From the NCBI RefSeq assembly GCF_005234135.1, contig NZ_CP039964.1:124001-188000 (forward strand): a DNA stretch of 64,000 nt, in the 5' to 3' direction. Positions 17,057 through 37,118 of the stretch are shown piece after piece. The position numbers and the translations under genes are program-made. The notes below the pieces were generated by a model. It saw only the letters and a program-made list of their open reading frames with translations. It was not told the DNA's origin and did not search any database. How positions within the stretch are numbered: the first letter of the stretch is position 1; each line of letters opens with the position of its first letter. This stretch comes from Pseudorhodobacter turbinis. GTDB taxonomy: Bacteria > Pseudomonadota > Alphaproteobacteria > Rhodobacterales > Rhodobacteraceae.

Positions 17057-17190
17057 TGTCGGACCCACGAAATAATGGCCACTCCTGATAAAAGATATGA
17101 TGCAAGTAACTGTAATATAATACTAAATTTTACATGATTGCTCGTCGTGGCGGCTAACTTGTCCACTAAACACATGGTTGTTGTCCATCG
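17057..17190 (+). repeat. transposon left end with TnsB-site-like repeats
   Basis: After the terminal inverted repeat (17057-17080) comes about 75 bases of AT-rich sequence, then TTGTCCACTAAACACATGG (from 17159) followed by TTGTCCAT. The same unit, TTGTCCATTAAACCACGTGG, occurs inside the right end (37049-37080, inverted), where it lies much closer to the tip. Repeated units of about 20 bases with different spacing at the two ends are how Tn7-like ends are told apart by TnsB. Confidence 0.65.
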
Positions 17191-17275
17191 TAAGTCCAAA
17201 AAAATACCGCCCGAAGGCGGCATTCTGAATTTTTGGCAGCTGGTAGAGGGGGAATGAAACTCGTGCAATGAGCAG

Positions 17276-18286
17276 TCATGTCTGTCTGGTCGGTATTTGT
17301 TTCTGAGGCTTTATGCCATTGCGGTTCACTTTAACGCCAAGAATTTTTAGGTTGGTTGTGATTGGCTCTGTTTCAATTATGTGTTGGCGAAGCACATCCC
17401 TGGTTGGCCCACGATCATTATGATCGGTCTCTGGTGCCAACCAATGATAGAGTTCGCCGAATGCATGTCCGGGATGTCGATCGCGCGCTGTCATTTCTCT
17501 GGGAGTTGCAGCTTGAAGTATCTGAAACGCCGCCCGCAAGCCTTCTTCGCCACGACTTGTCCATTCCCATCCGGCACTACCCGCATGTTGAGCTTGCGCA
17601 ATGGTCATTTCGTCCGTGTTCACACGATAGCCGAACTCCATGACTGCTCCGAGCATCTCAGTTGAACGGATCGCTTGTTCCAGTGTCTGGCCATCCAACC
17701 AATCGGGGCCACGCGCACCGGACATGCGACCGATGAGATAGGACTCAAGGGGTGAGGGCTGGACCGTTTCTGAATTATTCGAGAGTAATTCCAGATTGCT
17801 GGTAGAAAGCGGAACCCGGACTGACAAATCGGATTTCCAGTCGCCCGGTTGGCCATCTGACATTAAGTATATCTGATGGATCGGGCAGACGAAAACCGAT
17901 CGAAACCGCCATAGCAGGCGATCGCGCCGCTGTGCATCTGATCGCTCGCCATTTCCGTCATCTTCAAGCAGGCATTTCGGGCAGAATTTAGTCATCTGGC
18001 CCATCAGAAAGTCACTGCTGAACACCTCGTCGTTCAGCGAAAACCGGTATGAACTTGAGCGGAGAATTGTATTTCGCAGCAAGGGTTCTGGATCCTGATC
18101 CGCCAGATAGCAAAGCCGCTGAACGAATTCAGCATGACCACCAAAAAACGCAAAAGTCGGGATGTGCATGTCACGCAAGAATGCCTCAACACCACCCTTT
18201 GTATGAAACGCCGCAAGCCGGCCGGCCCAGGACAGGTGGCTTTCGTCTGGCGAGAACGCCAGACGAGGAAAGAGGCCGCCCTTCAT
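17276..18286 (-). CDS. tniQ: TniQ-family target-selection protein
   Basis: This 336-residue protein opens with FPRLAFSPDESHLSWAGRLA, the TniQ N-terminal pattern, and has a zinc finger with CPKC (C102, C105) and CPIH (C134, H137). TniQ/TnsD proteins recognise the target and recruit TnsC. The length fits Tn5053-like and some Tn7-like TniQ proteins and is shorter than Tn7 TnsD, so a long site-specific DNA-binding C-terminus is probably lacking. The start overlaps the tnsC stop (ATGA), as the last gene of the transposition operon. Its stop is about 220 bases from the left end, so transcription runs toward the transposon tip. Confidence 0.85.
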   Translation of the reverse strand: MKGGLFPRLAFSPDESHLSWAGRLAAFHTKGGVEAFLRDMHIPTFAFFGGHAEFVQRLCYLADQDPEPLLRNTILRSSSYRFSLNDEVFSSDFLMGQMTKFCPKCLLEDDGNGERSDAQRRDRLLWRFRSVFVCPIHQIYLMSDGQPGDWKSDLSVRVPLSTSNLELLSNNSETVQPSPLESYLIGRMSGARGPDWLDGQTLEQAIRSTEMLGAVMEFGYRVNTDEMTIAQAQHAGSAGWEWTSRGEEGLRAAFQILQAATPREMTARDRHPGHAFGELYHWLAPETDHNDRGPTRDVLRQHIIETEPITTNLKILGVKVNRNGIKPQKQIPTRQT

Positions 18287-19254
18287 ACTTTCGCCCTCCG
18301 ACGGCGCGAGCGGCCTTCAACCATTGCCGCATCCTTTTTGCGATCAGGGTCGATTTGCCACCAATCCGTTGCGAGAAAGACGTTGCGATCGATCTGATCG
18401 CCTTCTTGGAGAGCCCAGGCGGCGGCGAAGTGATGCATATGCAAGTGATCGGCACCTTCCAGCAAAGCCTGCTCGATGGCCAGGATGTTGTATTCGATGC
18501 AGCGACCGAAGCGCCGCCTTGCAGCGTGGACCAGGCGATCAACCAGATCAGCCTCGATAGGGGCGCTGAGGCCAGCGATCTCGCAATGCGCTTCGACAAT
18601 CGCCATGATATCATAGCGGTCTGCATCGGGGTCTACCGGAGGCAAGTAAAGTGTCGAAAACCGACGTTGAACCTGCGGATCCGACCGGACGAAGTCCGCC
18701 AGCTGCTCGGTCCCTGACAGAATGACGATCACCGCGCTGTCACCCTGCATGAGTGATTTGATGGCGCGCAAGATCTGGTTTTTGTCAGCGCAAAAAAGGT
18801 CTTGTGCCTCGTCGATCCAAAGCGCCGTGGTTTCAAGCAGGATGAGCCGTTCCTTGAGGATTTCCCATTTGGACCAGACCTCGCGACGCGAACTGGTTGT
18901 GGGATAGCCGGTCAGTTCAAGCAGGTGTCCTGCCATGCTCTTGAGAGTGGCAGGGCTTGGAACGGTGGCGCCGATAAAGGGACGTTTACCCTCGGAATTA
19001 TGCGCGAAGGCAGGATGTCGGGTCAGGCCGCGTTTCACCATGGTCGATTTACCGCCGCCGGGTGCGTCAATTACCATAATGCCGCGCGTTTCATGGGTGT
19101 TGGTGAACCGCAACGCTTCCGGGATGAGGTCGCCTTCCGGCGACCTCTTGAGAAGGCGGTCAAGATGCATAGCGAACGCATCGTCGCGCATGTTTTTCAC
19201 ATGCAATCCGCGCAAACGGTTCAGGGTCAGTTCGATTTTTGTGTAGTCAGTCAT
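18283..19254 (-). CDS. tnsC: TnsC/TniB AAA+ ATPase, transposition regulator
   Basis: The 323-residue product has Walker A APGGGKST (residues 64-71) and Walker B LWIDEAQ (145-151), followed by SLMQGDSAVIVILSGTEQLAD (a sensor-1-like strand) and an arginine-finger region. These match TniB/TnsC, which forms ATP-dependent filaments on target DNA and links TniQ to TnsB. It starts three bases after the tnsB stop and overlaps tniQ by four bases, so the genes are translationally coupled. Confidence 0.88.
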   Translation of the reverse strand: MTDYTKIELTLNRLRGLHVKNMRDDAFAMHLDRLLKRSPEGDLIPEALRFTNTHETRGIMVIDAPGGGKSTMVKRGLTRHPAFAHNSEGKRPFIGATVPSPATLKSMAGHLLELTGYPTTSSRREVWSKWEILKERLILLETTALWIDEAQDLFCADKNQILRAIKSLMQGDSAVIVILSGTEQLADFVRSDPQVQRRFSTLYLPPVDPDADRYDIMAIVEAHCEIAGLSAPIEADLVDRLVHAARRRFGRCIEYNILAIEQALLEGADHLHMHHFAAAWALQEGDQIDRNVFLATDWWQIDPDRKKDAAMVEGRSRRRRAKV

Positions 19255-19257
19255 GGC

Positions 19258-21405
19258 TTATTCCTCGAAGCTTACGCCGCTTTGGCGCTTTTGGATTTGG
19301 ACTTGTTTTGCAGTTGAAGTTGAAAGGGGGTTTGCAGTGTCTTCAGGGCCGGGGATCGACTGACCGAAGCCACCATCCACCGGAGCAGGTTGTGCAGGAG
19401 CGTTGCAGAATGAGCCCTGAAACATGGTCGTTTCGATTTTCTTGATCCGCGTCTCGCTCCATTCGTCGACCAACAATCCAGCTGCCGCCATTGCTGTGGC
19501 ATTGCGGTCTTGGATGGCTTCCATCGCCGCGAGAACAACTTCGCGGTCGAAACTCTTGCGTTTAGGGTGCGCTGCTCGAAGGTTGTTCGTTGCAGTCATC
19601 CAAGTTTTTGCGGCCTTGCCCTCCATCATAGGGTCCAGTGCAGGGATTTCGAACCACTCGGTTCCAAGGCGCACCTCGACGGCTCCAATGTCGCGGGGAT
19701 GCCAACGCACGTCGATATGGGCCTCGCCGTTGCGGTTCATCCAGAGTGCCAGCCGTTCCGAGTGGTAGCGCACCCCGAGAACCGTCAGTCCTTCTTTTGT
19801 TACCTTGCGAACGAGGGGTTCACCGAATACCAACCGCCAGCGGCGAAGGTCTGGCGGAGGTGTCACACCATATTGCGCAGAGAGGCGACGCCAGCATTGT
19901 GCAGGTGTTTCGCCGTCAAGACCGCGATGGGGCGTGTTGTGGTAACCATCGACGATCCACCGCACCAGGGCGAAAGCTAGATCGTCAAATGTCAAAACAG
20001 CACGGGCTCTGGGATCGGCATCGCCTTTGGTAAGGATGTCGGAGAACGTGCGTCCTGGTGAAACGGGTGGCACCGCGTTAGTCAGCGTCGCAAAAAAGCG
20101 CTCATTGCGGCCACGCTGTTGCGGCATGCCCGCTACTGTGCTTTCAACGGATATCCCGAGGTCAGCACAGGCCATGCGGAATGCTTCTGATTTGAAAGCC
20201 GTGCCGTTGTCCGTCACAATGAGTTCAGGGGTAAGATGCATGTCCCACGGGCCACGTGCGCGCACGCCATCGGACCATTGGCCCTTGTCCGAAATGATCA
20301 TTTGCAGACACTGAACCGCCGCGGTAGCTTTTGCGCCCCGAGAGATGACCATTCCAAGGATGCAGCGTGACGTCGTGCAGATTGCGACGGTTAGAACCCA
20401 GCGAGCCTTGGTGTTATCCAGCCCGACGGCAAGCCGCTCTTCCTCGGTCATCAGATTCCAAAGAGCACTGGAATGCATCAAGCTCAAAAGGTCGATGGTG
20501 TGTTCGTCGATCTCGATGCGCTGCCCCAGGCGGGTGAGGTTCAGACCCATGCCTGCCGGCATGAATTTCTTACGCGCAGCCTCAAGGCCTTCTCGCGCCA
20601 CCATCACTGTGAATGGATCCAGCGCATTGATGGCGCGGCGCACCGTCTCGCGACTTGGCGTATCCAACGGTGGTAACCCGGCTTCGGCGCGTTCTTGGTT
20701 TGCTTTCCCGAAGGCGATTTCCACGTTATCGAAGATAACGCGTTTTGTCGGTCGTTCCTGTGCCTGATATTTAAGCACTTCCTGCATCATAATACCTGTG
20801 GCCTCTGGGGCCATCCGGCGGTTCCGATTGCCCCGCATGCACATGTTGTCGATAAGGCCGGCTTCACCCAGAAGGGCTGCTTCCCGCATCCAGCGGCGAA
20901 GGGTGCGAGGCGAAGGTGCGGCAGCGAAATCCCATGACAGACCAGGATTGTCGTAACCCATAGGGTTTAAGTTCTGCGCGAACTTTGTTGCGCGCTGCAA
21001 AAGCTCTGCTTCATTTGCTTTGAGGGCATCGTCTGTTGCATTCAACTTGCCTTCACGGCGCATTTCGTTTGCGGCAGCCACCCATGCGCTGCGTTTAGAG
21101 TGCTGGGCACGGCGCTTTTTGCTCAAGCTTGAAACCAAGGTCGAGGTGGTTGTGAGGCGGCGTCCAGCCTGCGCCGGGTTATAAAAGCCTCGGTCGTGGC
21201 GCACACGGCCCATCGAGCCAAGGCGGCGAAGCTGTTCGTGGGAAAACTCCCTGCACATGCCGCTGCCATCTGAAAGCTCCATCACCCACCCTAATTCGTT
21301 GAAGCTGTGGGGACGCCATGCTGTGCCTTCGATGACAACTTGGTCAGATGTGCTAAATGCGTAGCGTGCAGTGGCAACGCTTATATTGTTGAAATTCAGT
21401 TCCAT
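19258..21405 (-). CDS. tnsB: TnsB/TniA DDE transposase
   Basis: The ATG at 21405 follows GGAGAAACAAACC. The 715-residue protein has N-terminal helix-turn-helix segments that bind the transposon ends, an RNase H-like integrase core and a Mu-transposase-type C-terminal barrel. The catalytic triad is visible: D300 (RIEIDEHTID), D399 (LIVTDNGTAF) and E435 (GRNERFFATL). The conserved NTPHRGLDGETPAQCW follows the core, as in retroviral-type integrases. It would nick and join 3' ends while TnsA cuts 5' ends. No frameshift or premature stop is seen. Confidence 0.9.
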   Translation of the reverse strand: MELNFNNISVATARYAFSTSDQVVIEGTAWRPHSFNELGWVMELSDGSGMCREFSHEQLRRLGSMGRVRHDRGFYNPAQAGRRLTTTSTLVSSLSKKRRAQHSKRSAWVAAANEMRREGKLNATDDALKANEAELLQRATKFAQNLNPMGYDNPGLSWDFAAAPSPRTLRRWMREAALLGEAGLIDNMCMRGNRNRRMAPEATGIMMQEVLKYQAQERPTKRVIFDNVEIAFGKANQERAEAGLPPLDTPSRETVRRAINALDPFTVMVAREGLEAARKKFMPAGMGLNLTRLGQRIEIDEHTIDLLSLMHSSALWNLMTEEERLAVGLDNTKARWVLTVAICTTSRCILGMVISRGAKATAAVQCLQMIISDKGQWSDGVRARGPWDMHLTPELIVTDNGTAFKSEAFRMACADLGISVESTVAGMPQQRGRNERFFATLTNAVPPVSPGRTFSDILTKGDADPRARAVLTFDDLAFALVRWIVDGYHNTPHRGLDGETPAQCWRRLSAQYGVTPPPDLRRWRLVFGEPLVRKVTKEGLTVLGVRYHSERLALWMNRNGEAHIDVRWHPRDIGAVEVRLGTEWFEIPALDPMMEGKAAKTWMTATNNLRAAHPKRKSFDREVVLAAMEAIQDRNATAMAAAGLLVDEWSETRIKKIETTMFQGSFCNAPAQPAPVDGGFGQSIPGPEDTANPLSTSTAKQVQIQKRQSGVSFEE

Positions 21406-21592: not shown

Positions 21593-22270
21593 TTAAGGCT
21601 GCTTTGCCTTGTAGATCGCAGCCTCATAGGAAATATGCTCATGATCCCGGAGCTTAAGGTGTCCGCTACGAAGCAGGCGCACCATTGCCCGGAAGCCGTT
21701 GCCTTGAAGGCCTGTCTCCGCAACAAGCGCGCCAAGCGTAGTGACGCCGGTCATGTTCTGCACAACACGTAAAGCAGCCAAATCATGTTCAGGTTGCGCA
21801 GCACGGCACGCGTGCAGCAGCTTTGCGTTGAACAGCGAAACCTGATCTAGATCTGCATCCGTCAAAAGGCGAACATCGCTGAAATGCCCTGATTCACGCG
21901 CTTGCTGCGCGATATGTGGCATGGTTTCGGCGAACGTCCCTTTCAAACCGACTACTGGCTTGACGGTATATGCGACGCGTTTTCCGCCAACGCAGCTTAC
22001 CACGAAGTCGAAGTAATGCTTATGCGCTTTGCCTTCCAAATCACGCCACTCGAACGGCACCTGCTCATGCAAGTCGGCCGTATCTGGGTGTGCGGCCAAG
22101 CACAGGGCGAAGTTGAACTCGAGGTGGCTTTCGGAGCCGACGACGCGACCATCACCGTCACCGAACACGAAGAGGCCGGTAAGATGGTTTCTCGAAGCAC
22201 CGGAAAGGTTGCGCTTGGAATGGCTTGGCTGAACGGGCCGTTGGCCATAGTTTTCCTGAGGATGGGTCAT
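21593..22270 (-). CDS. tnsA: TnsA-like endonuclease
   Basis: The 225-residue product carries the TnsA restriction-endonuclease fold: SESHLEFNFALCL (E51 or E48), YFDFVV (D88) and TVKP (K104) match the acidic, aspartate and lysine positions of the Tn7 TnsA active site, with Thr at the position before VK where Tn7 has Gln. The C-terminal half (MTGVTTLGALVAETGLQG and onward) is helical and suits the TnsC-binding winged-helix domain. TnsA cleaves the 5' ends so that the element moves by cut-and-paste. It is separated from tnsB by 187 bases and its start overlaps the stop of a small upstream open frame. Confidence 0.82.
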   Translation of the reverse strand: MTHPQENYGQRPVQPSHSKRNLSGASRNHLTGLFVFGDGDGRVVGSESHLEFNFALCLAAHPDTADLHEQVPFEWRDLEGKAHKHYFDFVVSCVGGKRVAYTVKPVVGLKGTFAETMPHIAQQARESGHFSDVRLLTDADLDQVSLFNAKLLHACRAAQPEHDLAALRVVQNMTGVTTLGALVAETGLQGNGFRAMVRLLRSGHLKLRDHEHISYEAAIYKAKQP

Positions 22271-23131: not shown

Positions 23132-23767
23132 TTAAGTCCCTCGAATAATGTCTGCCAGTTGCTCAAATAGATCCGTTGTCAAGGTCAACGCCATCTGAAA
23201 AGCAGGGGCTGGTAGATTGGCATCCGGCAACCCGTATCTCACTTCCAGCTCCATACGATTTGCCTCATAGTGTAGTCTTGCAAAGGGATCGTTATTTGTA
23301 ATTTTCACCGTTATTTTGTGGTGATCTTCATTATTTAAAGCACCTGCCGCCAACCCATCAACGAGAACTCCCATCGCAGAGCCAAGCGTTGCGGCTCTCA
23401 TCAACTCTTGCCCCAGTGGGAGCTGGGAAAAATCGTCATGCCATTGCGGAAACGCCCAGTCTGTCCCTTCAGCAAGCCGATCCAGGATGGAATCCGAAGC
23501 AGGCTGTCTTCGTAACCTGGACAGATGGCGTGGCAACCCAGAAACCTTCGCAACTAGAGCCGGAGCCTCTTTCATTCCGACGCCATGCACAGCAGCCAGC
23601 GCAAGGTTGCAAATATCCAAACCGACCATTTGCGCGGCAGAACGACCACGGCCGCCTTTGTTCCTCAGGCCAGCATTCAACAAAGCTCGGTCAATGCTTT
23701 CGAGCGTGACAGGGTTCACGCCGAAAACCTGTGCCGTCTTCATCACCATTTCGCCTGCCGTTGTCAT
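23132..23767 (-). CDS. unknown 211-residue protein, putative DNA-binding regulator
   Basis: The start at 23767 has GGGAGGGGGTCGCA directly upstream, so the in-frame start at 23833 inside the inverted repeats is rejected. The N-terminal 60 residues (AGEMVMKTAQVFGVNPVTLE, then SIDRALLNAGLRNKGGRGRS) resemble a helix-turn-helix region of the kind found in phage proteins. The middle and C-terminal parts have conserved-looking segments (GTDWAFPQWHDD, ITVKITNNDPFARLHYEANR) but no recognised domain. The promoter lies within a pair of nested inverted repeats (23779-23860), which suggests that the protein, or another DNA-binding protein, controls the gene. It is the first cargo gene next to the transposition operon. 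Function unknown. Confidence 0.6.
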   Translation of the reverse strand: MTTAGEMVMKTAQVFGVNPVTLESIDRALLNAGLRNKGGRGRSAAQMVGLDICNLALAAVHGVGMKEAPALVAKVSGLPRHLSRLRRQPASDSILDRLAEGTDWAFPQWHDDFSQLPLGQELMRAATLGSAMGVLVDGLAAGALNNEDHHKITVKITNNDPFARLHYEANRMELEVRYGLPDANLPAPAFQMALTLTTDLFEQLADIIRGT

Positions 23768-23778
23768 TGCGACCCCCT

Positions 23779-23860
23779 CCCATTCGAATTTTTTTCGTAT
23801 GGTATAAATGACAGAGACTCGAAAACGAGTCAAATGAATTCCGAAAAAATTTCGAATGGG
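23779..23860. promoter_or_regulatory. nested inverted repeats in the promoter of the 23132-23767 gene
   Basis: CCCATTCGAATTTTTTTCG (23779-23797) is repeated in inverted orientation at 23842-23860 with one mismatch over 19 bases. Between them, GACTCGAAAACGAGTC (23816-23831) is a perfect six-base-arm dyad. The inner dyad covers the region where transcription of the leftward gene should begin. This looks like a two-site operator. Confidence 0.6.
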
Positions 23861-23987: not shown

Positions 23988-24719
23988 TTAGGCGGTCAGG
24001 TTCGCACCACCCAGTTCCTGCCAATAAAACTCTAAGCGATCGCTAAACGGTCCCCTGAGGCCGCGCGCTGTTGGATGAACGACGCGGACGACTGGAACTT
24101 TTATCCCTGCATTTTGTAACGCATCATGGGCATCGTTTCCGATCGCCAGCACCTTGTCCGGTTGGAAAGCTTCCACTTCCCGGCGGATCACGGAAAAACA
24201 CAGAGTGCGAAGATCTTGATCAAGGCGTATGACGTTACGGCCAGCATACAACTTTATCGCGTCTGTTACCCAGACATCATACCCAGCAAGGACACATCGG
24301 CGGATGAGTTGCCACATCATACCCCAGTGTCGCCGTGTGCGGTGATAGTCGCTGTCGATCCCGAAGAAAGTCCCCACGGTCAACTTGGCTTCGTTTCCAT
24401 CGCGTTTAGGGTCTTGAGCACAAAGCATGATCCGTCCCCGCGTGGGGCGGTCGGCAGACAGCAGGCACGGTAGATCGTAACCGATGGTCTTGTTGGCGTA
24501 TGGCTCAAGTAAGTCTGTCTGCCATGCAACGCGGGGAATTTCTGGCATCATGCGGCCGGGTGCGTGACCATTGTAAAACTCATCTCGAAGCCGGTCAGAG
24601 ATTTGCACGAGGACATCAGGGGCGAAGAGATCGCTCTGAGTTTCCACTAAGCTTGACCATGATGGCGGATTGAACAGAATGTCTGCGTCAAATTTCTTCA
24701 ACTTGTCGGATGATGTCAT
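23988..24719 (-). CDS. uracil-DNA-glycosylase-fold protein
   Basis: The 243-residue protein has the layout of the UDG superfamily: GRIMLCAQDPKRDG (AQDP at 101-104, the position of the water-activating motif), VTDAIKLYAG (151-160), the strand-helix FQPDKVLAIGNDAHDAL (185-201) and VVHPTARG (213-220), matching the C-terminal HPS/HPT loop. It would bind DNA and remove a damaged or modified base. It does not match family 1 UDG or the iron-sulfur family 4/5 enzymes (no cysteine set), so the substrate is unknown. In a transposon with restriction genes, a role against phage DNA containing unusual bases is plausible but is inference. It is a single gene with no close partner on its strand. Confidence 0.6.
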   Translation of the reverse strand: MTSSDKLKKFDADILFNPPSWSSLVETQSDLFAPDVLVQISDRLRDEFYNGHAPGRMMPEIPRVAWQTDLLEPYANKTIGYDLPCLLSADRPTRGRIMLCAQDPKRDGNEAKLTVGTFFGIDSDYHRTRRHWGMMWQLIRRCVLAGYDVWVTDAIKLYAGRNVIRLDQDLRTLCFSVIRREVEAFQPDKVLAIGNDAHDALQNAGIKVPVVRVVHPTARGLRGPFSDRLEFYWQELGGANLTA

Positions 24720-27025: not shown

Positions 27026-29479
27026 ATGGAAAAACGATCGCTCAGTGAGCGCGATATTTGCACAAAATTCATAACTCCTGCACTCCGCCTCAAAGGCTGG
27101 GACGAAATTACCCAGATACGTGAAGAAGTTAGTTTTACCAAAGGCCGCATAATTGTCCGCGGTAAATTGGTCAGTCGCGGCAAAGGCAAGCGTGCGGACT
27201 ACATTCTTTCTGTAAAGCCTAACATACCGATCGCTCTCATCGAGGCCAAAGACAACAGTCAGGCGGTCGGGGCAGGGCTTCAGCAGGGGCTAGACTACGC
27301 TGAAACGCTGGATATCCCCTTCGTGTTTGCGTCTAATGGCGATGGTTTCGTGTTTCACGATCGGACCGGTATGTCGACGCCGCCAGAGGTCACTCTGACG
27401 TTAGACCAGTTTCCGTCGCCGGACGAACTCTGGGCGCGGTATCGGGCGTGGAAAGGTCTTTCGGATGAAGGATCAGAGATCGCACTTCAGGACTATTTCG
27501 ATGACGGTAGTGGCAAAACCCCACGGTATTACCAAGTCAACGCCGTCAATTCGACAATTGAAGCCATTGCCAAAGGGCAGGACCGCGTTCTTTTGGTCAT
27601 GGCGACGGGCACGGGTAAAACCTATACGGCATTTCAAATCATTTGGCGGCTTTGGAAAGCTGGGCAAAAGAAGCGTATCCTATTTCTTGCCGACCGGAAT
27701 GTTCTTATTGATCAGACGATGGTGAATGATTTCCGGCCATTTGCGGGAAGTATGGCCAAGCTTTCAACGCAGGCGAAGACAATTGAACGTGCAGACGGAA
27801 CCTCGACTGATGTAACATTGGCTTTGGATAAACACCGCCGGATTGACACTTCCTATGAGATTTATCTTGGCCTTTATCAGGCCATCACCGGCCCTAACGA
27901 AAGTCAGAAGCTCTATAAGGAGTTTTCACCTGATTTCTTTGATCTGATCGTAATCGACGAGTGTCACCGGGGCAGTGCTGCTGATGATTCTGCTTGGCGG
28001 GAAATCCTGGACCATTTCGGCTCGGCAACCCAGATCGGTCTGACCGCAACGCCTAAAGAGACTGAGTATGCCTCCAACATCGACTACTTCGGGGCACCCG
28101 TTTACAGCTATTCGTTGAAACAAGGCATACGGGACGGGTTCTTGGCACCCTATAAGGTGATCAAAGTTCACATCGACCGCGACGTTCAAGGCTATCGACC
28201 TGTGCAAGGGCAACTTGACCGTGCGGGCGAAGAAGTTGAGGATCGGATCTACAACGCCAAGGATTTCGATCGGACTCTGGTTCTGGACGATCGAACCAAA
28301 CTGGTTGCCCATAAGGTTTCGGAGTTTCTGAAGCAGAGCGGCGATCGGATGGCCAAGACGATTGTATTCTGTGTTGATCAGGAGCACGCGGCGCGGATGC
28401 GGCAGGCGCTGATCAATGAAAATGCCGATCTGGTGGCGCAAAACCATCGTTACGTCATGCGTATCACAGGGAATGACAAAGAAGGCCTCGATCAACTTGG
28501 TAACTTTATCGACCCCGAAGCAGCCTATCCGGTAATCGTTACCACTTCGAGGCTTCTCTCGACTGGGGTGGATGCGCAAACCTGTCGCCTGATCGTTTTA
28601 GACCGAGAGGTCGGGTCAATGACCGAGTTCAAGCAAATCGTCGGTCGCGGCACGCGCGTTCATGAGGATACCCAGAAGCTGTTTTTCACTGTCATGGATT
28701 TTCGGGGGTCAACAAGCCATTTTGCTGATCCGGAATTCGATGGTGAACCTGTTCAAATCTACCAGCCTGGCCCAGACGATCCGATCACACCACCGGATGA
28801 TGTTCCCCAGACCGATGATGAAGGCGCGCCCCTGCCAGATAAGCCTAGCGATGATGAAACGGTTCTCACCGATCACGTCGATCCGATTGCTGACAAGCAG
28901 GGCGGCGGACCGATCCGCAAGGTCTATGTCGATGGGGTCGGCGCAGTCATCGTGGCAGAGCGCGTTGAATACCTCGACGAAAATGGCAAGCTCGTTACAG
29001 AGTCTTTACGCGATTACACGCGCAAAGCCCTGAAGCGGCAGTTTGCCAGCCTTGATGATTTTCTCAAACGCTGGAATGGCGAAGGCCGAAAGCAGGCCCT
29101 GTTCGAAGAGCTGGAGGCCGAAGGTCTGCCGCTCGATGTTATCGCTTCGGAGCTGGGCAAGGATCTGGATCCATTCGACCTGATCTGTCACATAGCCTTC
29201 GACGCAAAACCACTGACCCGGCGTGAGCGGGCTGAAAGCGTAAAAAAACGCGATGTATTCACCAAATATGGGCCTCAAGCGAAAGCTGTTTTGGAGGCCT
29301 TGCTGGAAAAATATGCCGATGAGGGCGTTATGGACCTCGACGATCTTGGTGTGTTGAAGATCGCGCCATTCAGTGGCATGGGAAGTGTCGTTGAACTCGT
29401 CCGCGCTTTCGGCGGAAAACCTGGGTTCGAACAGGCCGTTCACGACCTGCAAGCTGCCATTTACAAAGAAAGCGCATAA
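27026..29479 (+). CDS. hsdR: type I restriction enzyme, R subunit
   Basis: The 817-residue protein has an N-terminal PD-(D/E)xK nuclease (D58 in RADYIL, E73 and K75 in LIEAKD), then a superfamily 2 motor with Walker A ATGTGKTY (193-200), DECH (311-314), GLTATP and the helicase C-terminal part with VTTSRLLSTGVDAQTCRLIV and QIVGRGTR. The C-terminal domain (after about 640) resembles the EcoEI R C-terminal domain that docks on the methylase. It would translocate and cut DNA unmethylated at the HsdS site. It is complete and lies three bases before hsdM. It is unrelated in detail to the broken hsdR at 14720-16875, which has the TQGSGKS-type motor. Confidence 0.93.
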   Translation: MEKRSLSERDICTKFITPALRLKGWDEITQIREEVSFTKGRIIVRGKLVSRGKGKRADYILSVKPNIPIALIEAKDNSQAVGAGLQQGLDYAETLDIPFVFASNGDGFVFHDRTGMSTPPEVTLTLDQFPSPDELWARYRAWKGLSDEGSEIALQDYFDDGSGKTPRYYQVNAVNSTIEAIAKGQDRVLLVMATGTGKTYTAFQIIWRLWKAGQKKRILFLADRNVLIDQTMVNDFRPFAGSMAKLSTQAKTIERADGTSTDVTLALDKHRRIDTSYEIYLGLYQAITGPNESQKLYKEFSPDFFDLIVIDECHRGSAADDSAWREILDHFGSATQIGLTATPKETEYASNIDYFGAPVYSYSLKQGIRDGFLAPYKVIKVHIDRDVQGYRPVQGQLDRAGEEVEDRIYNAKDFDRTLVLDDRTKLVAHKVSEFLKQSGDRMAKTIVFCVDQEHAARMRQALINENADLVAQNHRYVMRITGNDKEGLDQLGNFIDPEAAYPVIVTTSRLLSTGVDAQTCRLIVLDREVGSMTEFKQIVGRGTRVHEDTQKLFFTVMDFRGSTSHFADPEFDGEPVQIYQPGPDDPITPPDDVPQTDDEGAPLPDKPSDDETVLTDHVDPIADKQGGGPIRKVYVDGVGAVIVAERVEYLDENGKLVTESLRDYTRKALKRQFASLDDFLKRWNGEGRKQALFEELEAEGLPLDVIASELGKDLDPFDLICHIAFDAKPLTRRERAESVKKRDVFTKYGPQAKAVLEALLEKYADEGVMDLDDLGVLKIAPFSGMGSVVELVRAFGGKPGFEQAVHDLQAAIYKESA

Positions 29480-29482
29480 CTT

Positions 29483-30931
29483 ATGTCCGTCCGAAGCCTT
29501 GTGAAATCTCTTCAGCAGATCATGTGGAAAGACACAGGGGTCGACGGTGATGCTCAGCGTCTTAGCCAGCTTGTTTGGATGTTCTTTCTAAAGATCATCG
29601 ACGATCAGGATAAAGAGCTTGAGCTGACGAAAGAGAACTACAGATCGCCAATCCCTGTTGATTTGCAGTGGCGCACCTGGGCGGCAGATCCTGAAGGGAT
29701 CACCGGCGATACGCTTCTGAATTTCGTGAATGAGACACTATTCCCAGAGCTCAAAGCTTTGCCTATTTTGGCGGGTTCGCGTGCAAAGGTCGTGCGCGAT
29801 GTTTTTGAGGACACTTACAACTACATGAAATCCGGTCAGTTGATGCGCCAAGTGATCAACAAAATCAGCGAAGTCGACTTCAACAACCTGACCGAGCGCC
29901 AGCACTTCGGAGACATTTACGAGCAATTGCTGAACGACCTGCAAAATGCGGGCAACGCGGGCGAATACTATACCCCGCGTGCTGTCACGTCCTTCATGGT
30001 GCAACAGATGGATCCTCACCCCGGCGAGGTCTTGTTTGACCCGGCTTGCGGCACTGGCGGCTTTTTGACCTGCGCCATGCGCCACATGCGCGACAACTAC
30101 GTCAAACGCCCCGAGCATGAGGTGCTGATGCAGGGCGCCCTGCGCGCCGTGGAAAAGAAACCGCTGCCCCACATGCTCTGCGTCACCAACATGCTGCTCA
30201 ATGGGGTTGAGGAACCCGACTTCGTGCGCCACGACAACACGCTGGCCCGCCCGCTGGTCAGTTGGACCCGCGACGAACGCGTCGACATTGTCCTTACCAA
30301 CCCACCCTTTGGCGGCAAGGAAGAGGACGGGATCGAATCCAACTTCCCCACCTTCCGCACCCGGGAAACCGCCGATCTGTTCCTTGCCTTGATCATCCGC
30401 CTGCTCAAACCCGGTGGCCGTGCCGCCGTGGTGCTGCCTGACGGCTCGCTTTTTGGCGAGGGGATCAAGACCCGCCTCAAGGAGCACCTGATGGAAGAAT
30501 GCAACCTGCACACCATAGTGCGGCTGCCGAACTCGGTCTTCAAACCCTATGCCTCCATTGGCACCAACCTGCTGTTCTTTGAGAAGGGCACGCCCACGAA
30601 GGACATTTGGTATTGGGAACACAAGGTGCCCGAGACGCAGAAAGCCTATTCGATGACCAAGCCGATCCGGCTGGATCATCTGGATGATTGTGCCGCATGG
30701 TGGGGTGGCGCCGCGCGCGAAGGGCGCGTTGAGGGCCCGCAGGCGTGGAAGGTCACGGCAGACGAGATCAAGGGGCGCGGCTATAATCTTGACGTCAAGA
30801 ACCCCCATACGGTGGTCGAGGATCACGGCGATCCTGAAACCCTGCTGGCCGATCTGACTGCGGCAGAGGCCGAGACAGCCGCCCTGCGCGACCAGTTGAA
30901 AGCGATCCTGACCGAGGCGCTGGCGAGATGA
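29483..30931 (+). CDS. hsdM: type I DNA adenine methyltransferase, M subunit
   Basis: The 482-residue product has an N-terminal helical HsdM domain (residues 1-140), the AdoMet motif DPACGTGG (186-193) and the catalytic NPPF (273-276). With HsdS it transfers a methyl group to N6 of adenine in the recognition site and protects host DNA. The start follows the hsdR stop by three bases and the stop overlaps the hsdS start (ATGA), so the operon order is R-M-S. No mutation of key residues is seen. Confidence 0.94.
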   Translation: MSVRSLVKSLQQIMWKDTGVDGDAQRLSQLVWMFFLKIIDDQDKELELTKENYRSPIPVDLQWRTWAADPEGITGDTLLNFVNETLFPELKALPILAGSRAKVVRDVFEDTYNYMKSGQLMRQVINKISEVDFNNLTERQHFGDIYEQLLNDLQNAGNAGEYYTPRAVTSFMVQQMDPHPGEVLFDPACGTGGFLTCAMRHMRDNYVKRPEHEVLMQGALRAVEKKPLPHMLCVTNMLLNGVEEPDFVRHDNTLARPLVSWTRDERVDIVLTNPPFGGKEEDGIESNFPTFRTRETADLFLALIIRLLKPGGRAAVVLPDGSLFGEGIKTRLKEHLMEECNLHTIVRLPNSVFKPYASIGTNLLFFEKGTPTKDIWYWEHKVPETQKAYSMTKPIRLDHLDDCAAWWGGAAREGRVEGPQAWKVTADEIKGRGYNLDVKNPHTVVEDHGDPETLLADLTAAEAETAALRDQLKAILTEALAR

Positions 30932-32667
30932 AGGACGCCACGTTTTCCTCTGCCCGCCTGCTAGCGCTTTACGACCGCATCAGCGATGCCGACGACGCCA
31001 TCCCACGCCTGCGCCGCTTCGTGCAGGACCTCGCCGTGCGCGGCAAACTGGTGGAGCAGGACGCTAGCGACGAGCCTGCGGCGGAGTTGTTGGAGCGGAT
31101 CGCGCAGGAGAAGGCGCGGTTGGTGAAAGCGAAAGAGATCAAAAAGTCAGAAGTAGAAAGCGTTACCCACGACGAAGAACCGTATGTTTTGCCAAGAAAC
31201 TGGGCATGGACGCGACTTGGGTCGATTGGTGATTGGGGTGCAGGTTCAACACCGTCGCGCGGCAATTCTGAACTCTACGGCGGCTCGATGACATGGTTGA
31301 AATCGGGCGAGTTAAACGACAACACCGCCCTCGCGGGATCAGAGGAAACAGTTACCGAAATCGCCGTTAAAAAAGGTTCGTTCCGGGTCAACAAGCCCGG
31401 CGACGTTCTAATCGCAATGTATGGTGCGACGATTGGAAAACTTGCGATTCTTGCGGAAACGGCAGTTACAAATCAGGCCGTTTGCGGATGCACCCCGTTT
31501 GATGGCGTGGCCAACCGTTTTCTATTCTTGTTTCTGCTTGCCTACCGCGCAAAATTTCACGCAGCCAGCGAGGGGGGCGCGCAACCAAATATTTCTAAGG
31601 TGAAAATCGTTGGGACGCCATTCTCCCTCCCACCCCTCGCCGAGCAGCACCGGATTGTGGCCAAGGTCGATGAACTCATGGCGCTGTGTGATCAGTTGGA
31701 ACAGGCCCGCGTGGGGCGCGAGGCGGTGCGGGACCGGCTGACCACCGCCAGCCTCGCTCGTCTGACCGCCCCAGACACCGACGCGGAGGCCTTCCAATCC
31801 CACGCCCGCTTTGCCCTGCAATCCCTCCCCACCCTCACCACCCGCCCCGACCAAATCAAAACCCTCCGCCAAACCATCCTGAACCTCGCTGTGCGTGGAA
31901 AACTGGTGGCGCAGAATACAGCGGACGAACCGGCGGAGGAGCTGTTAGGAAGAATTGCGCAGGAGAAGGCGCGGCTTTTGAAGAGTGGGGAACTCAAAAA
32001 GCAGAAACCGCTGCCGCCAATCGATGAAGATGAAATAAGATTTATTCTGCCCACTGGCTGGAAGTGGGCGCGGCTTGGAGACCTCAGCCAATTCGTAACA
32101 AGTGGCTCGCGAGACTGGGCCAAGCACTACGCAAATGAGGGTGCAATCTTTGTCCGAATGGGAAACCTGTCCAAAAACCATTATCAGCTTCGGCTCGATC
32201 ATATACAGCGAGTGAATGCACCAGCTGGCGGCGAAGGTACGCGCACAAGCTTGGAGGGCGGCGATGTCCTCATATCGATCACGGGCGATGTCGGTATGCT
32301 TGGACTGATACCGGATGATTTTGGCGAGGCATACATCAACCAGCACACCGCGATGGTTCGGCCGATGCCTGACATGAAAGGACGTTATCTACCTGAACTT
32401 TTTCGCTCCCCTTTTGCTCAGGATCAATTCAACGCCCCGCAAAGAGGCATCAAGAACAGTTTCCGGCTGACCGATGTGACGCAGTTCGTCGTTCCCCTCC
32501 CACCCCTCGCCGAACAACACCGCATCGTGGCAAAGGTCGATGCCCTGATGGCGCTGTGCGATCAGCTGGAGGCAAGCATCACCACCACCGCCACCACCCG
32601 CAGCAAACTTCTCAACGCCCTCCTGCACGAGGCGCTGGAACCCGCCACCGAACTGGAAAGCGCATGA
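30928..32667 (+). CDS. hsdS: type I specificity subunit with two target recognition domains
   Basis: The 579-residue protein has two half-repeats. Each has a helical spacer (LAVRGKLV...EPAAELLERIAQEKARL, near residues 35-65 and again near 315-350), a target recognition domain beginning LPRNWAWTRLGS or LPTGWKWARLGD, and the closing PPLAEQHRIVAKVDELMALC (second copy VDALMALC). The two recognition domains differ, so a bipartite asymmetric DNA site is expected. At DNA level the closing repeats (31625-31700 and 32495-32570) share 66 of 76 bases. The stop overlaps the HNH gene start. Confidence 0.92.
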   Translation: MKDATFSSARLLALYDRISDADDAIPRLRRFVQDLAVRGKLVEQDASDEPAAELLERIAQEKARLVKAKEIKKSEVESVTHDEEPYVLPRNWAWTRLGSIGDWGAGSTPSRGNSELYGGSMTWLKSGELNDNTALAGSEETVTEIAVKKGSFRVNKPGDVLIAMYGATIGKLAILAETAVTNQAVCGCTPFDGVANRFLFLFLLAYRAKFHAASEGGAQPNISKVKIVGTPFSLPPLAEQHRIVAKVDELMALCDQLEQARVGREAVRDRLTTASLARLTAPDTDAEAFQSHARFALQSLPTLTTRPDQIKTLRQTILNLAVRGKLVAQNTADEPAEELLGRIAQEKARLLKSGELKKQKPLPPIDEDEIRFILPTGWKWARLGDLSQFVTSGSRDWAKHYANEGAIFVRMGNLSKNHYQLRLDHIQRVNAPAGGEGTRTSLEGGDVLISITGDVGMLGLIPDDFGEAYINQHTAMVRPMPDMKGRYLPELFRSPFAQDQFNAPQRGIKNSFRLTDVTQFVVPLPPLAEQHRIVAKVDALMALCDQLEASITTTATTRSKLLNALLHEALEPATELESA

Positions 32668-34157
32668 CATTGAAACCCGTCGAGGCAGAGCGCCTTTTGT
32701 CCAACCGTTTTGGTGATCCGGCCAAAGCCCCGACCGATTATGTGATAGGTTTCCGCACCCGAACCGGGAAAGTTTTGGCGATGCATCGGCAGGCCAGCGA
32801 AACGAGGATCTGGTTTCAACCGCCGACGCCGCCCGAGATGGATGGGGTGGTCTTGTTGGCTGTGCCGAATAACGGGAATTCCAATATTAACGGCCCGCTG
32901 AGCCCATTGGCGCGTCCGGATACACTTCGAGTTGAAATTGACACTGCGGCAGCGTTGCAGAGATTCATCGACTGGTATGGCGGTGGCTCTGCGGTTGAGA
33001 TCGAAGATACTCTGCCTGTGCCGCGTATCGCAGATTTCAAAGCAATCTTTGAGCGATTTCAAAGCCTGGTCACTGCCCGCTCGGGGCATCCGTTTGAAAC
33101 CTTTGAGGATGGCCTCGCCGCGAGCTGGGAAAGCTATAAGCCGCTCCTGCGTAAACATGCCCTTGCGTTATTGGCGCCGGACAGCTGGGACGAGGCGAAT
33201 ATCGGTTCAGGCAGCATCCTCAGACATGTGATCGATGCGATAGAAATCCAGAAGGATAGTCGCACCAACCTGACAAACAACCTTTTGTTCTGGCAAAACC
33301 GGTATGGCCATGCCAACCGCGAGCACCGGATACTGTTGGAAGCGCTGCAAACACCAAATCAAACACGAGAAATGGAGCGGATACTTTTCGACTTTTATCG
33401 TGGCAACGCGGACGATGGTGCGACGTTCGACCGGTTGGCGGATATGGGTGGCAAGTATACGCTGATCGCCTATCTGTTCTTCCTCAAGGACATGGATCGC
33501 TACATGCCGATCCAGCCCACCGGATTTGACCGTGCATTCCGTGCGATGGATATTGATTTCTCTACCCTGCGACAGTGTTCATGGGACAATTACTCGACCT
33601 ATCTTGCAATCCTAGCTGCGCTTCGTCCGCTTATCGCCAGTGAGGCAAAGCTGGCTTCCGTCCGATTGGTTGATGCGCATTCGCTTGTTTGGATTTTGGC
33701 GTCGCTTATGAAGCTGGAAGCCGCTGGGGAGCTGGCGGTTTCTGGAGGGAAGGCTTCAGATGGTCGCGTGCTGGGCGCGCGCGAAAAATCGATCATAGCG
33801 ATGCGCCTTTCAGTAGAAAACACTGTCAAAGGGTCTAACGGTCAGGTTGTTGAACGGACGGTGAAGAACAAGGAATTGCGGATGTCGCGCGATGAATTGG
33901 AGGCCACTATCGCCCGACTGCTGGAGCTGCAAGGCGACCGTTGCGCGTTAACCGGCATTCGATTGCAATTTCATGGCGGCAATGCTGACAAAAACCTGTT
34001 GCCGTCACTGGATCGAATTGACAGTGACGGCCACTATGAGGACAAAAATCTACAGGTCGTCTGCCAGTTCATCAATTTCTGGAAGGGTGACAGTGACAAT
34101 GAAGCGTTTTCCGATCTCCTCATGCTCGTAAGAAATCAAGTGGATTTGCGCGCCTGA
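32664..34157 (+). CDS. unknown protein with C-terminal HNH-like nuclease motif, fourth gene of the hsd operon
   Basis: The start at 32664 overlaps the hsdS stop as ATGA, which settles it over an upstream in-frame ATG at 32556. The 497-residue product has an N-terminal domain of unknown type (YVIGFRTRTGKVLAMHRQAS, about 1-110), a long helical middle (about 115-400, with SYKPLLRKHALALLAPDSWD and LTNNLLFWQNRYGHANREH), and a C-terminal zinc-knuckle-like segment: GDRCALTG (C427), LPSLDRIDSDGHY (D450, R451, D453) and LQVVCQFINFWKGD (C467, N471, K474). This is the PSLDRID form of the HNH/beta-beta-alpha-metal fold. The tight overlap says it is made with the restriction enzyme. Standard type I systems have three subunits, so its role (extra nuclease, control, or anti-phage effector) is open. 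Confidence 0.7.
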   Translation: MTLKPVEAERLLSNRFGDPAKAPTDYVIGFRTRTGKVLAMHRQASETRIWFQPPTPPEMDGVVLLAVPNNGNSNINGPLSPLARPDTLRVEIDTAAALQRFIDWYGGGSAVEIEDTLPVPRIADFKAIFERFQSLVTARSGHPFETFEDGLAASWESYKPLLRKHALALLAPDSWDEANIGSGSILRHVIDAIEIQKDSRTNLTNNLLFWQNRYGHANREHRILLEALQTPNQTREMERILFDFYRGNADDGATFDRLADMGGKYTLIAYLFFLKDMDRYMPIQPTGFDRAFRAMDIDFSTLRQCSWDNYSTYLAILAALRPLIASEAKLASVRLVDAHSLVWILASLMKLEAAGELAVSGGKASDGRVLGAREKSIIAMRLSVENTVKGSNGQVVERTVKNKELRMSRDELEATIARLLELQGDRCALTGIRLQFHGGNADKNLLPSLDRIDSDGHYEDKNLQVVCQFINFWKGDSDNEAFSDLLMLVRNQVDLRA

Positions 34158-34268: not shown

Positions 34269-34595
34269 CTAAACGATCTTACCGTTTCGAATGTCGAGCG
34301 CCTTAATAACGTCAACTACATGATAATGCACACGACCATCTACAATCGGTCTGTCATGGCCTGATCCGTTGTTTTCGATAATCTCGATTATTTTGTCAGG
34401 CAGTCGTTCCGGATCGATTGGCAGGCCCGCATCAAGTGCTGTTCGGATAAAATGGACGGTCACAAGAGTTTCGGTATAAATGTCGTCGCTTTCGGTTGGC
34501 CGCCGTTGCATTTTCGGGGGCTGAGGTGGTTGTAGTGGTCCGATAAAACGCGCCCTTTCACGTTGCAAATCATCAAGTGTGGGGCGTTTTTTCAT
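34269..34595 (-). CDS. hypothetical protein, 108 residues
   Basis: The ATG at 34595 has AAGGTAAAAC upstream. The product starts with a basic segment (KKRPTLDDLQRERARF), a proline-rich linker, then a helical part with TETLVTVHFIRTALDAGLP and a C-terminal HVVDVIKALDIR. No family is recognised. It is convergent with the HNH gene, 111 bases away, and lies just before the nested IS3 copy. It is a possible small regulator or antitoxin-like protein, without further support. Confidence 0.5.
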   Translation of the reverse strand: MKKRPTLDDLQRERARFIGPLQPPQPPKMQRRPTESDDIYTETLVTVHFIRTALDAGLPIDPERLPDKIIEIIENNGSGHDRPIVDGRVHYHVVDVIKALDIRNGKIV

Positions 34596-34762: not shown

Positions 34763-35026
34763 ATGAAAATGACCAGATATAGCGAACCCCAGATCCTTGC
34801 GATCCTGCGCCAAGCCGAAGGTGGTGTGCCGGTGGCCGAGCTTTGCCGTGAACATGGCATGAGCAATGCGTCGTTTTACAAATGGCGTGCGAAGTATGGT
34901 GGCATGGATGCATCCATGGTCAGCCAGATGAAAGCCATGGAGGAAGAGAACCGCAGGCTGAAGCGGATGTATGCAGATCTGAGCATGCAGGCGGACTTAT
35001 TGAAGGAAGCCCTCGGAAAAAAGTAA
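34763..35026 (+). CDS. IS3-family transposase OrfA
   Basis: This 87-residue protein has the helix-turn-helix of the IS3 OrfA family ([20 protein letters not shown], then [20 protein letters not shown]) and a leucine-zipper region ([20 protein letters not shown]). It binds the element's ends and dimerises. The stop TAA at 35024 lies just past the slippery AAAAAAG (35017-35023), where ribosomes can slip to make the fusion transposase. Confidence 0.85.
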
Positions 35027-35850
35027 CGGGGCCATCTCAGCGCCGCGAGATGGCCGAAACGGCGGTAGAGCGACGGGGCGTCAGCATCGCGCTGGCGTGC
35101 CGGGCCTTCGAGGTCAGCGAGACCTGCTATCGTTACAGCCCGAAGCTGAAAGACGAGAACGAGGTGATCGCCGATCTGCTGACAGGGCTGACGGATGCGC
35201 GCAAGACTTGGGGATTTGGCCTGTGTTTCCTGCATTTGCGCAACGTGAAGGGGCATCCGTGGAACCACAAGCGGGTCTACCGGATCTACTGTGAGCTGGA
35301 ACTGAACCTGCGCATCAAGCCGCGCAAGCGGCTGAAACGGGAGAAGCCTGACGTTCTGGCGGTCCCGAACAGACCGAATGTGACCTGGTCCATGGACTTC
35401 ATGGCGGATCGCCTCGGCGACGGCAGGGCTTTTCGGCTTTTGAATGTGTTGGACGACTTCAACCGCGAAGGGCTGGGGATCGAGGTTGATTTCTCGCTCC
35501 CTGCCGAACGGGTCATCCGCAGCCTTGATCGCATTATCGAATGGCGCGGAAAACCGGGCACGATCAGGGTCGACAATGGGCCGGAATATATCAGCGAAAC
35601 ACTGAGAAAATGGGCTGAGAAACATAGTGTTACGATCCAGCACATCCAACCCGGACAGCCCCAGCAGAACGCCTATGTCGAGCGCTACAACCGGACGGTT
35701 CGGCATGAATGGCTGGATCAATACATCATCGAAAGCATCGAGGAGGCTCAGGATCAGGCCACACAATGGCTCTGGACATATAACAACGACCGCCCGAACA
35801 TGGGCATCGGCGGCATCACACCCGCTATGAAACTGAAAATGGCCGCGTAA
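34763..35850 (+). CDS. IS3-family OrfAB fusion transposase (by -1 frameshift)
   Basis: The OrfB frame is -1 relative to OrfA and is continuous through 35850; AAAAAAG at 35017-35023 is the likely slip site. OrfB has the HTH_21 segment ([20 protein letters not shown]) and the integrase triad: D in [12 protein letters not shown] in IRVDNGPEY and E in [15 protein letters not shown]. It joins the element's ends to new DNA. Translated alone, OrfB may begin at the ATG at 35050. The copy has no premature stop. Confidence 0.82.
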
Positions 35851-35936
35851 GTTCTACAGATGCACCCCGTTAAAAAGGGGGCGATTACCATGCAATGCTC
35901 AAAACCGAACTAGTTTTGCATTGCGCTAAGTTAGTT

Positions 35937-36827
35937 TTAAGAAGACGGGCCGAGTTTCACAACAGCGTGGATCTGCATTTGGCTCTTGCCCTTGGTCGTT
36001 ATGAAGTGTGCCCATGCTAGCTGCTGTCTGTAACCTGCACCGATATCCAGGTCGACGGCCCGATAACCGTCAATGCCATCACAGATTGCCAGTTTTTCCA
36101 CTTCGGTAAGTTGTTCGCGCAGTGACGGTGTATGGCCATGAACGACTACAGTGGGCTTTTGACGGCGGCGCTCCGGATCTTGATCATCACCATTCCAACC
36201 ACCGATCCAGTTGAGAAATGGATACCGCATAGTGGCCCAGTGCATGTCCGATCTGATTTGATACCGGCTTTGTGCCAAAAACGTCGCCCTGTCGGCATGG
36301 GGGTCAATCCCCGCATGGACAAACAGCAAATCCCCGAGATGAAGGTGAGACGGCCCGTGAGCGATTTGTTCGAGGTAACCAGGGTGCAAAGCGGCCCTGA
36401 TTTTTTCTGTGATTGCAGCCCACGTATTGACCTGCTGTGAAAGACCCAGCTCAGACAAAACAGATTTTCCGCCATTGGTGAGCCAGTGTTCGAGACAGCT
36501 TTCATCTTTCATGGCGTCCAGAAGCATCAGATCGTGGTTTCCGGGCAGTATGTGCAGATTGTCTGCGAGGGCCTGCATGTTACCAGCCATCGCCAGTTTG
36601 ACCGCGGCGAAGGATGCTCTGCCTCGGTCAATGAGATCGCCAAGAAAGATTAGGTGCCGTCTGCTCGTGGTGCGCGGAATTGAGGCAATCGAGGAAAGCG
36701 CGGCATTGAGCAGCTCAGCCTCGCCATGGACGTCTCCGATAGCGAAGATCTCTTCGTTTTCAGGAAGTGCCCCCGGCAAGTCCCTCCATGACAGGTTATA
36801 GAAGCTTAGGTTTGCCGAAAAATTCAC
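35937..36827 (-). CDS. calcineurin-like metallophosphoesterase
   Basis: The 296-residue protein has the two-metal phosphoesterase motifs in order: FAIGDVHGE (about 32-40), FLGDLIDRG, ILPGNHDLML, and late VVHGHTP. This is the pattern of bacterial serine/threonine phosphatase-like and diadenosine-tetraphosphatase-like (ApaH-type) enzymes. It is soluble and has no signal peptide. The start is a GTG at 36827 without a clear ribosome site; a later start would cut into the fold. It is the last cargo gene, about 220 bases from the right end, so it is possibly a nucleotide- or protein-phosphatase accessory in defence. The substrate is unknown. Confidence 0.75.
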   Translation of the reverse strand: MNFSANLSFYNLSWRDLPGALPENEEIFAIGDVHGEAELLNAALSSIASIPRTTSRRHLIFLGDLIDRGRASFAAVKLAMAGNMQALADNLHILPGNHDLMLLDAMKDESCLEHWLTNGGKSVLSELGLSQQVNTWAAITEKIRAALHPGYLEQIAHGPSHLHLGDLLFVHAGIDPHADRATFLAQSRYQIRSDMHWATMRYPFLNWIGGWNGDDQDPERRRQKPTVVVHGHTPSLREQLTEVEKLAICDGIDGYRAVDLDIGAGYRQQLAWAHFITTKGKSQMQIHAVVKLGPSS

Positions 36828-37048
36828 AAAACACTCACAGGCTTATTTGGTTTGCCTTACAGCGACCTAAAGGTCTTGATCTGTCAAGCGCGGCACTCAG
36901 CTTTTATATGGGAGACGTTCAGTAAACATGGGGCTAGGCAGGCTTTCATTACTGTAGCGATAGGCGAAGCCGAGGCATTGTGTCTATCACAGGGAGTTGA
37001 CTGTCTAGGGCATTGTTTTCATTGTAAATATTCATTTCTTGATTTTCA

Positions 37049-37118
37049 GATGGCCATTAACCACGTGGTTTAATGGACAAAAACCCCCTCCAATGGACAT
37101 TATTTCATGTGTCCGACA
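37049..37118 (-). repeat. transposon right end
   Basis: The terminus is TGTCGGACACATGAAATAAT read inward from 37118, followed by TTGTCCATTAAACCACGTGG, the same unit as in the left end but only about 40 bases from the tip. A C-run (AAAAACCCCC) separates the two. It closely matches the isolated end at 16987-17053. Confidence 0.8.

Follow-up and report, generated by a model that had tools for sequence, protein, structure and literature searches.

A Tn7-like transposon with a core-only TniQ, probably site-specific, upstream of pccB in Pseudorhodobacter turbinis

Organization of the locus

The DNA analysed here (the window) is a 64,000-nucleotide stretch of the Pseudorhodobacter turbinis genome (contig NZ_CP039964.1, positions 124,001 to 188,000), and the subject of this study is a Tn7-like element of 20,062 bp at window positions 17057-37118. 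Its transposition genes lie on the minus strand in the order tnsA, tnsB, tnsC, tniQ, all four open, with 219 bp between the end of tniQ and the element's left end. Beyond the right end lies a carboxyltransferase gene that we take to be the propionate-metabolism gene pccB, a name adopted from an earlier, sequence-only reading of this DNA. Two related genomes recur below: G002, of the same genus, and G369, an uncultured Sulfitobacter. The main features are as follows:

16979..17053, plus strand: right end of a neighbouring Tn7-like element of greater age, here called element A (aligned with the right ends of the window element, G002 and G369)
17052..17056: CAACT, left target duplication; its CA overlaps the presumed terminus of element A
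17057..17256, plus strand: left end of the element, with terminal inverted repeat TGTCGGACCCACGAAATAATGG and a terminator-like hairpin near 17200
17276..18286, minus strand: tniQ, 336 amino acids (aa), core only, without C-terminal extension (Pfam TniQ 4e-19; lengths of relatives; fold)
18283..19254, minus strand: tnsC, TniB-type AAA ATPase (Pfam TniB 8.9e-17)
19258..21405, minus strand: tnsB, DDE transposase, 715 aa (Pfam rve and Mu-transpos_C; Tn6677 TnsB 2.8e-27)
21593..22270, minus strand: tnsA endonuclease, 225 aa (weak NCBIfam TnsA-like match, 8.1e-6, below cut-off; neighbour of tnsB)
37044..37118, plus strand: right end of the element (alignment with other right ends and right-end model match)
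37119..37123: CAACT, right target duplication (read from the sequence)
37145..37195, plus strand: attachment region with operator boxes 37145-37165 and 37185-37195; box 2 begins 66 bp past the right terminus
37264..38790, plus strand: pccB-type carboxyltransferase gene, the target neighbour (carboxyltransferase models; the best, mmdA, below cut-off)

Ends and transposition genes

The terminal inverted repeats, TGTCGGACCCACGAAATAATGGCC and TGTCGGACACATGAAATAATGTCC, match at 21 of 24 positions, and CAACT is duplicated at both edges (17052-17056 and 37119-37123). A scan of 31 kb (window 9001-40000) for pairs of TG-starting 24-mers more than 2 kb apart returned a single pair with at least 19/24 matches and a 5/5 duplication, namely the element's own termini; five shuffles in two-base blocks gave no pair of at least 19/24 with a perfect 5-bp duplication. 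A related end scan scored 31 for the window; 20 related loci, in which the second end was either beyond the range scanned or not known, reached at most 25.

TnsB keeps its catalytic triad (D300, D399 and E435), and its best sequence match among solved structures is the Tn6677 TnsB (2.8e-27). The zinc-type motifs of TniQ (C102xxC105 and C134xxH137) are likewise kept. TnsC carries a Walker B motif (LWIDE) and an atypical P-loop, DAPGGGKST; a search of the protein with the canonical Walker A pattern gave no match. Among 16 aligned family rows, E47, E51 and D88 of TnsA are near-invariant, whereas K104, present in the window protein, is not; a tnsA homologue stands upstream of tnsB in 20/20 related loci examined. 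That TnsA and TnsB together carry out cut-and-paste transposition is established for Tn7, and the presence of both here would, by analogy, imply the same.

The element thus combines a DDE transposase TnsB, a TnsC ATPase and a TniQ-family protein with matching terminal repeats and a 5-bp target duplication, and it sits at a preferred attachment site where three genomes show one orientation and a fixed spacing of 64-66 bp. It is a complete, possibly functional Tn7-like transposon of an unusual variety. The sequence-only reading had proposed a complete Tn7-like element with exact ends, encoding TnsA plus a short TniQ and perhaps still able to move; the analysis bears out each of these points, the last as a possibility.

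In the window clade TniQ is 331-338 aa long (core only), versus ~500-660 aa in most relatives (the interrupted TniQ of G147 was left out), and the window protein ends at the point from which the extension of long TniQs starts. Conservation within the short clade is good, with a mean column identity of 71% over 16 rows. A structure model of TniQ aligned with the TniQ of type I-F CRISPR-associated transposons (CASTs) over residues 3-324 and with TnsD over 1-244 only; a first model, built from 16 short proteins, was poor (predicted local distance difference test score 58) and was not used. A sequence search of the PDB with a TniQ profile gave no match, and no TniQ relatives were found in viral_contigs. 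As modelled, the protein looks like a CAST adaptor TniQ, that is, a putative adaptor without a reader of its own.

A near-constant distance to an operator-like box upstream of pccB

The distance from the right terminus to the box TTTGCAAATTT is 66 bp in the window, 65 bp in G369 and 64 bp in G002; element A with its flanks joined would also lie 64 bp away. The distance to the pccB ATG is 145, 150 and 143 bp in the window, G369 and G002, respectively. Box spacing is therefore constant within 2 bp, whereas the ATG distance varies by 7 bp. Anchoring on the box left 46 empty relatives (of 54 upstream regions, five had no anchor box and three carried an element), and in these the operator is the main conserved block near the site, with the consensus TT.GC..aTTTGCAaTTtGCa-N10-TG.a.A-N3-TTTGCAAATTTgC followed by a short CTTTg; through the anchoring and the removal of the five boxless regions, the conservation of box 2 is partly by construction.

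We take these boxes to be the operator of the regulator PccR. Open frames carrying the PccR N-terminal domain, 477-484 aa long, are present in the window genome as well as in G002 and G369. In Rhodobacter/Cereibacter sphaeroides, pccB is regulated by PccR according to passages of PMC12632250 and PMC10370305, which do not give the letters of the boxes. In many genomes pccB has a transporter gene and pccR close by; G002 and the window genome carry these two genes on a different contig (the transporter at G000:C2:57014-58483 in the latter). In G007 the transporter likewise lies away from pccB, so the surroundings of that gene have been rearranged.

On this evidence, it is likely that the element, a cut-and-paste Tn7-like transposon, targets this specific site upstream of pccB in a single orientation and ~65 bp from the box, with TniQ serving as adaptor to whatever reads the operator.

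A sister element and empty sites

A TnsB scan of named genomes uncovered one distant partial match and one close relative, a sister element in the uncultured Sulfitobacter (G369, locus L115; TnsB 85%, TnsA 75%, TnsC 82%, TniQ 62%). Its left end follows ACAGT. On a different contig of that genome, a right end is succeeded by ACAGT, with pccB beyond; given the equal duplication, we take the two ends as those of one element.

Most related genomes lack such an end at pccB. Only two of 30 regions in the first survey scored at least 18 with the right-end sequence upstream of pccB (window 26/27, G002 24/27), and in 7/8 same-genus relatives no right-end-like sequence was found there over up to ~1.6 kb (best 13-16/27). 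Among 30 Sulfitobacter pccB loci checked, from 57 matching genomes, only G369 carries the right end (27/27); the other 29/30 score 13-15. A right-end model run on 62 Sulfitobacter genomes detected five ends at E<=0.001, one at pccB (G369), two at nrdJ and two at neither. When the joined flanks of the G369 element were used as a query, only the pccB side was matched in the 56 other matching Sulfitobacter genomes; thus, the left flank is not native there.

An older element at the same spot

The window element did not land in plain chromosome. The 75 bp to its left (16979-17053) share 37/39 bases with its own right end and match the right-end model at 77.8 bits, element A itself being one of the four rows on which that model was trained. 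An older element A thus ended here, with its presumed terminus at 17053, and the present element is inserted at that terminus, forming a tandem. The left end of A was not found in the 57 kb upstream, where the best left-end profile score was 8.5, versus a mean of 9.8 for 20 shuffle maxima. In G002, an A-type right end is fused directly to the pccB flank and reads TATTCGTGGGTCCGACACAGACTGACAT into pccB; window A and G002 share ACTGACAT directly after the right end. Because the left flank is itself a transposon right end, GTCGG-CAACT is not native chromosome, contrary to what the sequence-only reading had implied. The empty site that it predicted is nearly matched: G002 does read from this flank straight into pccB without the element, but the flank is an A-type right end.

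G118, G317 and G558, and less clearly G381, likewise show a right end abutting another left end, indicating that stacking recurs in the family. Several further traces were observed in the window genome. The hsdR gene of element A is split into three open reading frames (ORFs; 14622-15011, 15014-15418 and 15415-16875) and looks broken, and a remnant of a Mutator-type (IS256-like) transposase lies at window 8820-9527 (Pfam Transposase_mut). A third right-end-like sequence (G000:C1:929618-929683, E 2.3e-4) precedes a lipoprotein-hydrolase-like gene, and partial TnsB homologues (40-43%) at G000:C1:237920-238675 and 443822-444790 are perhaps remnants of other elements.

Related elements at nrdJ and elsewhere

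TnsB relatives (E<=1e-30) were found in 62/345 genomes of the family, the window genome included. Two partly overlapping samples, of 345 and 390 genomes, were scanned with the right-end model, whose training set was four ends from pccB sites. Outside the window genome the scans returned 35 right-end rows, of which the 34 with a locus were examined (G558:7995 was left out). Given their identical coordinates, G540 and G387 are probably one genome entered twice, as are G546 and G390. In 20/34 the stop codon of nrdJ, encoding a class II ribonucleotide reductase, lies 18-27 bp away (loci L149, L151-L160, L209, L210, L212-L214, L218, L219, L221 and L224). One further end is 153 bp from the nrdJ stop codon, 13/34 lie elsewhere, and 0/34 are at pccB. 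The gene piece at L152 matches NrdJ (TIGR02504, 3e-92); the gene is partial, and the match falls below the full-length cut-off. Judging from these junctions, the nrdJ 3' end is a common attachment site of related Tn7-like elements in Rhodobacterales.

The nrdJ-site elements resemble the window element in their tnsA-B-C-tniQ order, related ends and, in G287 and G112, an uncharacterized gene (orf233). They differ in attaching past the nrdJ stop codon and, where both site and TniQ are known (five genomes), in having a long TniQ of 605 or 512 aa, or frames of 606-642 aa. The window element is probably a site-specific Tn7-like variant for which a target switch is likely.

Equal 5-bp duplications at both ends also mark elements in G174 (CGTGT) and G287 (CCCGA). 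In the right flank of the G174 element (L098), CCCGCTTAC occurs twice, ~68 bp apart, before what is presumably a flagellar gene, perhaps as an operator-like site. A related element with a 311-aa TniQ lies beside arsenic-resistance genes on plasmid IV of Paracoccus aminovorans (L202); its right end was not found.

An open-licence literature search found neither Tn7-like elements at a ribonucleotide reductase gene or nrdJ, nor TniQ together with propionyl-CoA carboxylase, nor anything on topic for tandem Tn7-like elements in Rhodobacter. The sites named in the consulted part of the review PMC11406308 are glmS, parE, tRNA genes, guaC, yciA, ffs, rsmJ, yhiN and comM; pccB and nrdJ are not listed there. 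Overall, the sequence-only reading identified the Tn7-like character, the ends and the pairing of TnsA with a short TniQ, and missed the tandem, the operator spacing at pccB, the nrdJ site and what a short TniQ means for targeting.

Cargo and other genes

The cargo is largely devoted to defence, comprising a type I restriction-modification system and a JukB-like pair:

23132..23833, minus strand: orf233, uncharacterized, upstream of tnsA (~30% identity in 5/15 related sequences)
23988..24719, minus strand: uracil-DNA-glycosylase-like (UDG-like) protein, cargo (Pfam UDG 1.3e-4, just below cut-off)
25163..26856, plus strand: JukAB-like two-gene pair, cargo (PADLOC JukB 3e-12 for the second gene, 25843-26856; no PADLOC match for the first)
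27026..32667, plus strand: type I restriction-modification genes hsdR, hsdM and hsdS, cargo (PADLOC)
32556..34157, plus strand: orf533, uncharacterized 533-aa protein, cargo (57% identity to a homologue inside the G287 element; no match in Pfam, PADLOC or NCBIfam)
34269..34595, minus strand: 108-aa protein (81% identity to a counterpart close to the right end of the sister element in G369)
34763..35850, plus strand: IS3 insertion sequence within the element (NCBIfam IS3 9.7e-64 for 34882-35850); absent from the G369 element
35937..36827, minus strand: metallophosphatase, cargo (Pfam 7.7e-13; 76% identity, near the right end in G369)

The orf233 product has no family match. Its gene is present upstream of tnsA in several family members, including elements with a long TniQ (G287, G118, G112 and G317), and is a possible core gene of the transposon family.

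Comparison with known systems

Like Tn7 (TnsABC plus TnsD, attTn7 at glmS), the window element has TnsA and TnsB, TnsC, a TniQ-family selector, a 5-bp duplication, a single orientation and a near-constant spacing to host sequence. Unlike Tn7, its TniQ lacks the TnsD-type C-terminal extension, and its site is the upstream regulatory region of pccB rather than the 3' end of a gene; no TnsE was recognized in the element. With type I-F3 CASTs (Tn6677, Tn7016) it shares the closest TnsB sequence among solved structures (Tn6677) and a TniQ model that aligns over almost the full length. A scan of the larger ORFs revealed no Cas effector, and neither a repeat array nor a site-matching guide was found; HsdR overlaps Cas models weakly (8e-5 and weaker, PADLOC). 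RNA-guided homing is not supported, there being no att-like run above control in addition to the missing array and guide. An Rfam scan of window 1-40000 at gathering thresholds gave no match.

A short TniQ has been suggested as a hallmark of elements with additional target selectors by Faure et al. (2023, PMC10293859). Tn6022 (TniQ of 369 aa plus TnsF, at comM) shares the short TniQ and differs in its target. No TnsF of the Tn6022 type was recognized, and no same-strand ORF of at least 80 aa follows tniQ within the element; the cargo was not searched structurally for TnsF. Elements of the Tn5053/Tn402 type have a resolvase and lack TnsA, whereas the window element has TnsA, and no such resolvase was recognized among the scanned window ORFs.

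How the site may be chosen

In the reading that we favour, TnsA and TnsB, TnsC and TniQ would insert the element upstream of pccB with its right terminus ~65 bp from the operator box. TniQ would have lost the C-terminal region kept by its long relatives, several of which are at the nrdJ 3' end, and would act between TnsC and the operator's reader. Because the element lies upstream of the operator and close to it, pccB retains both boxes, and little cost to the host is expected. The leading candidate for the reader, still tentative, is host PccR bound at its own operator, ahead of an unrecognized element-encoded selector and then of TniQ itself. Two observations favour PccR: the conserved block found at the measured distance is presumably its operator, and all three hosts encode the protein. 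It is possible, though rather doubtful in this full form, that operator-bound PccR recruits the adaptor TniQ and thereby TnsC-TnsAB, the host regulator replacing the lost DNA reader of TniQ; insertion could then follow the metabolic state that PccR senses.

Several points weigh against this interpretation. The pccB site was seen in three genomes only, and window A and the G002 end may be one old insertion. Between the window genome and G369, TnsB (85%) and the pccB product (84-86%) have diverged to a similar degree, which inheritance would produce as well, and the G369 element has its two ends on separate contigs, joined through their equal duplication. The left flanks of both pccB elements are non-native, so the comparison lacks a whole native empty site. 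The G174 element, with a 311-aa TniQ of the same clade, is inserted elsewhere without a pccB-type box, and the TniQ fold match is modest (Foldseek template-modelling score 0.44). Finally, the identity of the box as PccR operator is presumed, and the TniQ-PccR contact is putative.

Among other possible readers, a selector encoded by the element could recognize the site on behalf of TniQ, in the manner of TnsF in Tn6022; the candidates are orf233, orf533, the UDG-like protein and the 108-aa protein. In support, orf233 recurs upstream of tnsA, and the G369 element has kept the 108-aa and phosphatase genes close to its right end. Against it, orf233 is not tied to the short TniQ, and no same-strand ORF of at least 80 aa follows tniQ within the element; we consider such a selector a tentative second choice. 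Somewhat less probable is that TniQ itself reads the operator, its second helical domain or the tail of its core having gained DNA specificity without a partner. TniQ is the only recognized targeting protein in the element and its clade is well conserved, yet the protein stops short of the extension of the long TniQs, and its model aligns with type I-F CAST TniQ over residues 3-324 and with TnsD over 1-244 only.

Explanations without active targeting fare worse. One ancient pccB insertion inherited by both lineages would account for the equal divergence of TnsB and pccB products and for the ACTGACAT shared by window A and G002. Such descent would require many losses, given the empty loci in same-genus relatives and Sulfitobacter; moreover, the duplications differ (CAACT vs ACAGT), and the two stacked right ends of the window genome imply at least two insertions at this spot. 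We therefore regard shared descent as improbable. Chance landing in an AT-rich intergenic region, for which the 13/34 right ends at neither nrdJ nor pccB might be cited, is very improbable in view of a box spacing that holds within 2 bp while the ATG distance drifts.

Significance

Tn7-like elements are a source of programmable insertion tools, and target choice is their most useful property. An adaptor-type TniQ at a near-constant, operator-proximal site, with neither Cas proteins nor a recognized selector, points to an undescribed targeting route. The pccB operator offers a defined target sequence and PccR a specific host protein to test, and the nrdJ 3' end used by sister elements provides a comparison for the study of target switching.

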